Shown: piece by piece, positions 16,544-18,077 of the stretch
Layout: every line of letters begins with the position of its first letter
How positions within the stretch are numbered: position 1 is the stretch's first letter
DNA from: Pseudomonadota bacterium
GTDB taxonomy: Bacteria > Pseudomonadota > Gammaproteobacteria > Xanthomonadales > Rhodanobacteraceae
Assembly (NCBI GenBank): GCA_018241365.1
Contig: JAFEDX010000001.1
Coordinates: 1-64,000 of the forward strand
Length of the DNA: 64,000 nt
Direction: 5' to 3'
The notes under the pieces: model-generated
The model's input: the letters and a program-made list of their open reading frames with translations, nothing else
The model's database searches: none
Told to the model about the DNA's origin: nothing
Made by a program: the position numbers and the translations under genes

Positions 16544-16558
16544 GTGGCGGCAAGGGCG
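16544..16558 (+). other. Possible att remnant matching the tRNA-Phe 3' end
   Basis: GTGGCGGCAAGGGCG here matches GTGGCCAAGGGCG at 18004-18016 (the 3' end of tRNA-Phe, same orientation) apart from two inserted bases. It sits exactly where the restriction gene fragment loses similarity. The sequences are seen; their role as an attachment-site duplication is inferred. Confidence 0.4.
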
Positions 16559-16836
16559 TCCTCGTCGTAGAACTTCGCCTGGATGGCGTGCAGCCCGCCC
16601 GTGGTGGTTTCAGCCACGAGGTCGATGCCGGCATCCGAGCCCACGTCACCCATACCGCGCTTGGCCGCTTCCTTGCGCCATTCCTCCCACAGCCACACGC
16701 TGCCCGCGTACAGGTCGCGGTAGTACGGCTCGTTCTGGAGGTGGGCCTTGACCAGCCGCTCGAAGTAGATGCCCTTCTCGCGCTCGCTGTGCGCGGTGGT
16801 GCGGAAAGTGTCGAGGAGATGCTGTAACGCGCTCAT
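16544..16836 (-). pseudogene. 5' remnant of a type ISP-like restriction-modification / DEAD-helicase gene
   Basis: From ATG 16836 (AGGGGA upstream) the reverse strand encodes a well-formed N-terminus: MSALQHLLDTFR, HSEREKGIYFERLVKAHL, VWLWEEWRKEAAKRG, and the Mrr-like nuclease start GIDLVAETTTGGLHAIQAKFYDED. This is the first ~90 residues of the very large (>1000 aa) single-chain ISP-type restriction enzymes. Similarity stops at about nt 16558, and the open frame then runs antisense into the ATL gene. More than 90% of the gene is missing, so it is a fragment. Nearby are higBA and an integrase remnant. Confidence 0.75.
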
Positions 16837-16986
16837 CGGTTCCCCTGTGGTGTCCCCGGCAGGCCCGCGGCGCTCAACAGGTCGCTGCTCCCGCCATGCG
16901 AACCAAGCGCTCCACGCAATACCCACCAAAGCGTCGAGTCTAACCTCGTTCGCAGGCGCGGGTGGCCGGTTCAGCAGCGTTTTGGG

Positions 16987-17295
16987 TCATGCGGCGGCCT
17001 TGTGGATCGCGCGCAGTTCGTCGGCCAGTTCGCGTTCGGCGTGCCACAAATCGTAGTCTTGCTGCATGCGCAGCCAAAGCGTTGCGCCGTTGCCCGCGAG
17101 CTTGCCCACGCGCAGCGCCATTTCCGGCGTGAAGCCCTTGCGCTCGGCCAGCAGATCGTGCAGGGTTTGCCGCGACACGCGCAGGCGGCGTGCGGTTTCC
17201 GCGACGCTCAAATTCAGCGCAGGCAGAACATCCTCGCGCAGGATCGCGCCGGGATGCGTTGGCGCGCGGTTTCGCTTGGTGGTGTGTTCAGTCAT
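16987..17295 (-). CDS. higA: HigA family antitoxin
   Basis: 102 aa XRE-type helix-turn-helix antitoxin. It has HPGAILREDVLPALNLSVAETARRLRVSRQTLHDLLAERKG (HTH) and LWLRMQQDYDLWHAE, both diagnostic of HigA. It binds and neutralises HigB and represses the operon. It is the second gene, 8 bp after higB, the toxin-first order typical of higBA. Start is ATG 17295; an upstream open frame to 17352 overlaps higB and is rejected. It has no stop or frameshift and appears intact inside an otherwise decayed island. Confidence 0.93.
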   Translation of the reverse strand: MTEHTTKRNRAPTHPGAILREDVLPALNLSVAETARRLRVSRQTLHDLLAERKGFTPEMALRVGKLAGNGATLWLRMQQDYDLWHAERELADELRAIHKAAA

Positions 17296-17303
17296 GGTTG
17301 GCC

Positions 17304-17582
17304 TCAGTGATACTGTTGCAAGTCCACGCGCAGCGCGTCGCCGTCGGCCCATTCAAACGTGATGCACCACGGCCCGTTCACGTGCAGGCTATAGCGCGTC
17401 GGCTTATGTCCCTTCAATGGATGAAAGTCGAAGCCGGGTACGCTCAGGTCGGCCAGTTCGCGCGCGACGTGCAGCGCGTCCAGTCGCCGCAGCGTGCGGC
17501 CTTGCAGGTCGGGCCGTACTTTCGCACTCTTGCCGGTGCGGAAGAGGTCGGCCAAGCCCTTGTGCCGGTAACTGCGGAACAT
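17304..17582 (-). CDS. higB: HigB family toxin (RelE-like ribosome-dependent mRNase)
   Basis: 92 aa, the standard HigB length. MFRSYRHKGLADLFRTGKSAKVRPDL at the start, LDALHVARELADLSVPGFDFHPLKGHKPTRYSLHVNGPW and ITFEWADGDALRVDLQQYH at the end are the family signature. HigB cleaves mRNA on the ribosome. ATG 17582 is preferred over in-frame ATG 17609 because it matches other HigB starts and because 17609 lies inside the operator. The predicted -10 ends only 5 nt upstream of this ATG, so the mRNA may be leaderless. Confidence 0.93.
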   Translation of the reverse strand: MFRSYRHKGLADLFRTGKSAKVRPDLQGRTLRRLDALHVARELADLSVPGFDFHPLKGHKPTRYSLHVNGPWCITFEWADGDALRVDLQQYH

Positions 17583-17587
17583 GCGGC

Positions 17588-17628
17588 ATTGTCCATGATC
17601 GCTTGACATGTGTCAAGCAATGCTTGAC
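17588..17628 (-). promoter_or_regulatory. higBA promoter and operator with three alternating half-sites
   Basis: The forward strand reads GCTTGACA (17601-17608), TG, TGTCAAGC (17611-17618), AA, TGCTTGAC (17621-17628): three copies of one half-site in alternating orientation. They form a perfect 8-2-8 palindrome and an overlapping palindrome. On the reverse strand the middle copy supplies a consensus -35 TTGACA (17611-17616). Seventeen bases later GACAAT (17588-17593) is a fair -10. HigA binding here would block RNA polymerase, which is conventional autoregulation. Confidence 0.8.
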
Positions 17629-17709
17629 TACCGCGCTTGGCGCTTGCGGATCGGCACAATCTTGCCGGGTGCCACGCGCAGCCCGTCCCATGGAAGGCGA
17701 AGACGGCCT

Positions 17710-17988
17710 GTGGAGCAGTGTTCGACCAAGGCATGGAAGCGGGTGTTGCAACGTGCGGGCATCGAGCAGACGTTTCGTTGGCACGATTTGAGGCACACGT
17801 GGGCCTCGTGGCACGTGCAAAATGGGACGCCGCTGCGCGAGCTCATGAAGCTCGGCGGTTGGGCAAGCTACGAGATGGTGTTGCGGTGTGCCCATCTCGC
17901 AGCGGACCATCTGCGCGGCGCCACGTGCCGGATCGATGGCACGTTTACGGCACACGCGCCACGGTTGCAGCTTGTGAAGCAGTCGTAA
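17710..17988 (+). pseudogene. 3' remnant of a phage-type tyrosine integrase, catalytic Tyr replaced by Cys
   Basis: Only the C-terminal catalytic end is recognisable: CSTKAWKRVLQRAGIEQTF, then RWHDLRHTWASWHVQNG with the H-x-x-R box, LRELMKLGGWASYEMVLR and CAHLAADHL. In related integrases this last block reads RYAHLA with the nucleophilic Tyr; here the codon is TGT (17887-17889), one base from TAT. The N-terminal two thirds, including the first catalytic Arg, are absent. The fragment ends 13 bp from the 3' end of tRNA-Phe, the usual place for such an integrase. Confidence 0.85.
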
Positions 17989-18001
17989 GTATCTGAAGGG
18001 A

Positions 18002-18077
18002 TGGTGGCCAAGGGCGGAATCGAACCACCGACACGAGGATTTTCAGTCCTCTGCTCTACCAACTGAGCTACTTGGCC
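18002..18077 (-). tRNA. tRNA-Phe (GAA)
   Basis: 76 nt on the reverse strand with encoded CCA. Acceptor GGCCAAG/CTTGGCC, D-arm GCTCAGTTGGTAGAGC, anticodon arm GAGGA-CTGAAAA-TCCTC (anticodon GAA) and T-arm GGTTCGATTCC. It is intact at its 3' end despite the neighbouring integrase remnant, as expected when an island restores the tRNA. Confidence 0.97.

Follow-up and report, generated by a model that had tools for sequence, protein, structure and literature searches.

The 1.46-kb interval between an alkyltransferase-like (ATL) gene and tRNA-Phe most probably holds the remains of a small tRNA-Phe integrative element that inserted after the tRNA gene and its promoter had been inverted and that was then gutted by deletions. 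The interval lies in a window of 64,000 nucleotides (bases 1 to 64000 of its contig, in a genome of 3.23 Mb and 222 contigs) and contains, going from ATL to tRNA-Phe, a Type ISP restriction fragment, higA, higB, and an integrase fragment (Table 1). Blocks of homology to other loci cover the restriction gene from 16555 to 16846, higBA from 16982 to 17688, and the integrase from 17687 onward, the higBA block ending where the integrase block starts. The initial annotation had proposed a decayed island at tRNA-Phe, and the start of the restriction gene, the whole of higBA, and the end of the integrase were all where it had placed them. It had missed the inversion of the tRNA-Phe cassette. Apart from this flipped cassette, the locus is an ordinary decayed tRNA island.

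Table 1. Features of the ATL-to-tRNA-Phe interval and its flanks (window positions)
Feature	Position	Strand	Basis
ATL gene, intact, chromosomal flank	16202-16537	+	PF01035, 80 bits
AGGAA, edge of inverted cassette away from promoter	16539-16543	.	5-bp inverted repeat with TTCCT; breakpoints inferred
Predicted outer attachment copy, damaged (native 3′ flank of the tRNA and the first part of its 3′ end)	16540-16558	.	Alignment to G001 empty site; joint against G192 and G001 restriction genes
Type ISP restriction-modification pseudogene, N-terminal 98 codons	16543-16836	-	
Deletion joint with GGCG microhomology, closing the outer attachment copy	16555-16558	.	
135 bp between restriction and higBA homology blocks	16847-16981	.	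No match in the loci compared
higA antitoxin gene, intact	16987-17295	-	TIGR02607
higB toxin gene, intact	17304-17609	-	PF05015
Inverted repeat GCTTGACA-TG-TGTCAAGC, likely HigA operator	17601-17618	.	Read from sequence
Tyrosine integrase, C-terminal ~98 codons, RYAHL to RCAHL	17686-17988	+	
Inner attachment copy (3′ part of tRNA-Phe)	about 18002-18046		Extent taken from G222 and G208 repeats
tRNA-Phe (GAA), intact	18002-18077	-	ARAGORN
tRNA-Phe promoter, TTGACG-17 bp-TGTAAT, inverted with the gene	18136-18164	-	14 cassettes aligned
TTCCT, promoter edge of inverted cassette	18170-18174	.	Read from sequence; breakpoints inferred

No intact tyrosine integrase is encoded in the interval. The fragment covers positions 101 to 170 of the 172 positions of Phage_integrase, and its stop lies 13 bp from the tRNA-Phe 3′ end, as first described. 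Relative to the G009 integrase, which is intact at 342 residues, the window integrase keeps residues 245 to 342 and has lost residues 1 to 244. Its RCAHL site replaces RYAHL, whose Tyr we take to be the catalytic Tyr of the tyrosine integrase family; this Tyr is present in 11 of 12 aligned relatives, the other (G166) having His. Judged from the sequence, the integrase is dead twice over, by the loss of 244 of 342 residues and by a probable catalytic Tyr-to-Cys change, and the element is predicted to be no longer able to move. Since the integrase is broken, the locus is a remnant and not a mobile island. Among phage records, the best match was a Burkholderia phage integrase (172 bp, 73%), and no record covered 80% of the query.

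We searched 233 genomes of the family with the integrase fragment plus tRNA and obtained matches in 18 genomes at an E value of ≤1e-30. The window genome and G001, G005, G006, G010, and G015, which match little beyond the tRNA, were left out of the islet count. In the resulting 12 genomes (G009 and 11 from other genera), the integrase end lies next to the 3′ end of tRNA-Phe. In two of these, G222 and G208, the 3′ part of the tRNA recurs as an exact copy of 45 to 46 bp, followed by a similar element arm, at distances of 3,061 and 4,738 bp; these repeats reach the anticodon loop. In the other 10, a second tRNA-end copy was not seen within the stretches examined, several of which were short. The G208 islet (L091, oriented positions 13725 to 16184) carries an 819-codon repeat-rich open reading frame as cargo.

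At the ATL side of the interval, the initial annotation had pointed to a short match with the tRNA 3′ end. This match is present as described but is not significant by itself: with the tRNA end as the only probe, it was reached in 154 of 1,000 dinucleotide-shuffled versions of the interval. The relative G001 provides an empty site, as had been anticipated for strains lacking the island, with one copy of the core: its ATL stop is followed by about 9 bp and then by the tRNA 3′ end. G001 reads AAAGGGAAG after the ATL stop and then continues into the tRNA 3′ end, and the window reads AAGGAAG followed by TGGCGGCAAGGGCG. When the G001 empty site, from ATL stop to tRNA end, was used as the probe, the match extended to 16540-16558 with one substitution and one gap, beginning 3 bp past the stop codon of ATL; among 1,000 shuffles, 1 reached it. 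A displaced tRNA 3′ fragment in direct orientation is therefore present at the far end of the island in damaged form, with 19 bases of flank and repeat surviving, compared with the intact repeats of 45 to 46 bp in other genera.

This match to the empty site, together with the intact repeats and the same integrase geometry in related islets, leads us to read these 19 bases as a damaged outer attachment copy. The shuffles reached with the tRNA end alone would also suit a chance match, in which case a restriction-higBA fragment would have entered beside ATL by illegitimate recombination and the integrase remnant would be older and unrelated; no islet with the same integrase has restriction or higBA genes, which agrees with this scenario. 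We consider it improbable, as the empty-site match begins right after the ATL stop, spans both flank and tRNA end, and was equaled by a single shuffle.

Assuming a damaged attachment copy, the adjoining restriction gene locates the deletion that closed it. The restriction fragment matches positions 1 to 55 of the 127 positions of the Pfam family Mrr_cat_2 and aligns with intact Type ISP enzymes of about 1,650 to 1,660 amino acids in G192 (87% identity, residues 1 to 94) and G001 (80% identity, residues 2 to 95). Because the fragment is the N terminus of proteins of this size, about 94% of the gene is gone from the window, in line with the truncation of more than 90% first estimated. In the G001 and G192 homologues, nuclease, helicase, coupler, and Type_ISP_C domains were identified, along with weak matches to methylase; the full Type ISP set (a single chain with nuclease, helicase, coupler, methyltransferase, and specificity domains) is missing from the window fragment. 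DNA similarity to the intact genes of G192 and G001 begins at 16554-16555, so the truncation coincides with the att-like match, and the gene loses its family resemblance there, as had been claimed. At the joint, the window reads CAAGGGCG and then TCCTCG, the empty site reads CAAGGGCGGAATCG, and the G192 restriction gene reads TTGGCGTCCTCG. The window's CAAGGGCG fits the attachment copy and GGCGTCCTCG fits the G192 gene, with an overlap of 4 bp. The restriction gene thus stops at the attachment copy because a deletion with GGCG microhomology fused the two. The proposal that the outer boundary marks the old attachment site is right in that the attachment copy lies there, as the G001 alignment indicates, but the boundary is a deletion joint within a damaged copy and not a clean element end.

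A search of the 233 genomes with the restriction gene (E ≤ 1e-8) matched 13 genomes, including the window genome. Matches in the other 12 lie in open frames of 1,528 to 1,729 codons (eight genomes) or in shorter frames (G094, 823 codons; G147, 595; G144, 321; G190, 82, with a stop), where contig ends could matter. None of these 12 genomes has a 98-codon short gene like that of the window, so that among the 233 genomes searched, we found no sign of the fragment being kept as a short gene across relatives.

Neither a Type ISP gene nor higBA was found in the related islets examined, and their arrival with this element is therefore unproven. The shared origin with the integrase implied by the initial annotation is unsupported, and the full islands that it expected in relatives were recovered in part: long attachment repeats (G222 and G208) and an intact integrase (G009) exist, but without restriction genes. 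The restriction and higBA genes may have come separately, which counts against the history proposed here. They could, as a lesser but serious possibility, be the cargo of another element that landed inside the tRNA-Phe islet before both decayed. The intact Type ISP genes of G001 and G192 share neighbors (by translations), with no tRNA seen within about 20 kb, and higBA homologues are located elsewhere in other genomes, all of which would suit a second element; from 16541 to 17988, however, neither a second integrase nor the Type ISP neighbor genes could be traced. Plasmid records matched in 31 cases, and among the matches listed (15 of the 31), higBA alone was matched.

Full-length HigB-like toxin and HigA antitoxin genes stand side by side, and the pair is intact, as originally described: higA scores 97 bits against a cutoff of 47.7 and higB scores 54 bits against a cutoff of 27. 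Comparison with homologues suggests that higB more likely starts at 17585. In homologous pairs of G008, G135, G125, and G221, all 102 residues of higA and 93 to 101 of the 101 residues of higB align. The dN/dS ratios against these four homologues were 0.12 to 0.20 for higA and 0.09 to 0.32 for higB, pairwise values that are silent on selection in the window genome itself. The inverted repeat upstream of the likely higB start overlaps a promoter-like site and is probably the HigA operator. By its sequence, higBA appears to be the only complete gene pair left in the element, presumably retained by selection or because losing it is costly as long as toxin is present. The view of a gutted island that kept only its toxin-antitoxin pair thus stands as to the gutting and the wholeness of higBA but not as to a common origin of cargo and integrase.

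We compared the surroundings of tRNA-Phe in 15 relatives from the genus, of which 14 had the locus (G013 had no ATL match). ATL adjoins tRNA-Phe or its promoter in most of these relatives. The tRNA gene is on the ATL strand in 13 of the 14: 12 loci carry it in full (G002 to G010, G012, G014, and G015), and G011 ends within the promoter with the same polarity. G001 is the sole relative with the inverted orientation of the window. The inverted unit is a cassette of about 175 bp, tRNA plus promoter, and alignment of 14 cassettes showed that the promoter moved with the gene. Neighboring genes are uninverted; those beyond the cassette (18202 to 20728) keep their orientation in G014, in G003, and, in part, in G001 and G005. 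The cassette edges carry AGGAA and TTCCT, and the breakpoints are our reading. The island's position between ATL and the tRNA follows from the inversion of the cassette. dnaA lies at 2,386,731 in G014 and at 2,835,623 in G015; if the origin is near dnaA, tRNA-Phe is read with the replication fork in these genomes, and inversion would set the gene against the fork, which for the window genome would hold by extension.

Trees of the ATL region, of rnr-rlmB, and of four loci did not pair the window genome with G001, with mixed support and conflict between loci. The window genome grouped with G010 or with G010 and G012, both of which have the usual tRNA orientation. Its identity was highest to G001 in three of four loci (dnaB, radA, and rnr, not rlmB). 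One inversion event, lateral exchange of the locus, and two events are all possible. That tRNA-Phe inverted independently in the two genomes, or flips repeatedly, would explain why they do not pair in the trees, but we regard this as unlikely: both junctions are alike in sequence in the two genomes, the trees have the mixed support noted above, and the edges bear repeats of only 5 bp. It is more doubtful still that tRNA-Phe and its promoter form a small invertible cassette in the genus whose orientation changed more than once between nearly fixed edges; such a cassette would turn a fork-codirectional gene into an opposed one and change the side on which islands insert. Searching by titles and abstract openings, we came across no description of a tRNA gene being inverted in place together with its promoter; the event is unusual and easy to follow in this genus.

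Under the single-inversion history that we prefer, tRNA-Phe and its promoter would have been inverted in place in an ancestor shared by the window genome and G001, probably through microhomology. A small element with a phage-type tyrosine integrase, as the related islets suggest, would then have entered the 3′ half of tRNA-Phe, its own copy rebuilding the tRNA and the displaced tRNA end staying beside ATL; the prior inversion would have let this insertion fall between ATL and the tRNA. Deletions would have removed the N-terminal part of the integrase, and a further deletion would have fused the outer attachment copy to restriction codon 93 to 95 through GGCG. Counted against this history are the trees, in which the window genome and G001 are not sisters, and the assemblies, the window genome being in 222 contigs and G001 corresponding to a metagenome-assembled genome record. 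The locus offers a clean example of the death of a tRNA island: a deletion joint lies inside the attachment copy, the integrase has lost its head, and the last genes still whole are a toxin-antitoxin pair.

The loss of the integrase N terminus has parallels in the family. Searching the 233 genomes with the full-length integrase protein and no tRNA in the query, we found close copies (at least 60% identity) beside or near tRNA-Phe in 10 genomes, 1 intact (G009) and 9 decayed, a count that omits copies found through their tRNA-side end in the search with fragment plus tRNA. Residues 1 to 60 are missing in all nine decayed copies, and the tRNA-side end is kept in eight, the exception being G168, whose 48-residue remnant lies about 1 kb away from the tRNA. 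Integrase remnants beside tRNA-Phe in this family thus appear to be lost starting at the end away from the tRNA, a pattern that the essential tRNA may impose generally. We also considered, and rejected, that the integrase end preserves a terminator or RNA structure: 81 nucleotides over the tRNA 3′ end and its downstream side folded no better than shuffles (z = 0.40), and there was no terminator-like site there.

The locus resembles known systems in part. According to the Islander report (PMC4383910), which treats tRNA-targeted genomic islands, describes an anticodon-centered subsite, and applies a 2-kb length filter, such islands have an intact tRNA gene at one end, a displaced 3′ fragment in the same orientation at the other, and an integrase beside the tRNA, as here; the repeats of related islets ending in the anticodon loop fit that subsite. 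Unlike those islands, the window has a short, damaged displaced fragment and an integrase fragment, and because its interval is below the filter, Islander would not report it. The E. coli pheV island (PMC11537424) is likewise modular with variable cargo at a tRNA-Phe gene, but its integrase gene is the only conserved gene, whereas in the window the integrase is broken and the toxin-antitoxin pair remains whole. Compared with Type ISP enzymes such as LlaBIII (PMC4666363), the window fragment corresponds to the N-terminal Mrr-like nuclease part, without the helicase, coupler, methyltransferase, and specificity domains.

Other events were seen at tRNA-Phe in the genus. In G010 (L030:8607-9827) and G002 (L032:8388-9446), a different integrase with Arm-DNA-bind_3, Phage_int_M, and Phage_integrase domains starts just downstream of the tRNA-Phe 3′ end, so integrases of more than one family use this site. 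What separates ATL from the tRNA in these two genomes is, by translations, a sensor/regulator pair without tRNA-end copies beside it; it was rejected as an instance of the window element. In G005 (L027, oriented positions 6018 and 6180) and G006 (L028, 2337 and 2519), the last ~18 bp of tRNA-Phe occur again some 160 to 180 bp downstream of the gene, recalling the repeats that reportedly follow E. coli tyrT. In G014 (L024:2637-2850), the first ~19 bp of tRNA-Phe are duplicated with a start-to-start distance of 190 bp, so that the full tRNA gene is separated from its usual promoter. In G004 (L037, oriented positions 2983 and 3128), the tRNA-Phe 3′ end occurs twice, as exact copies spaced 145 bp from each other.
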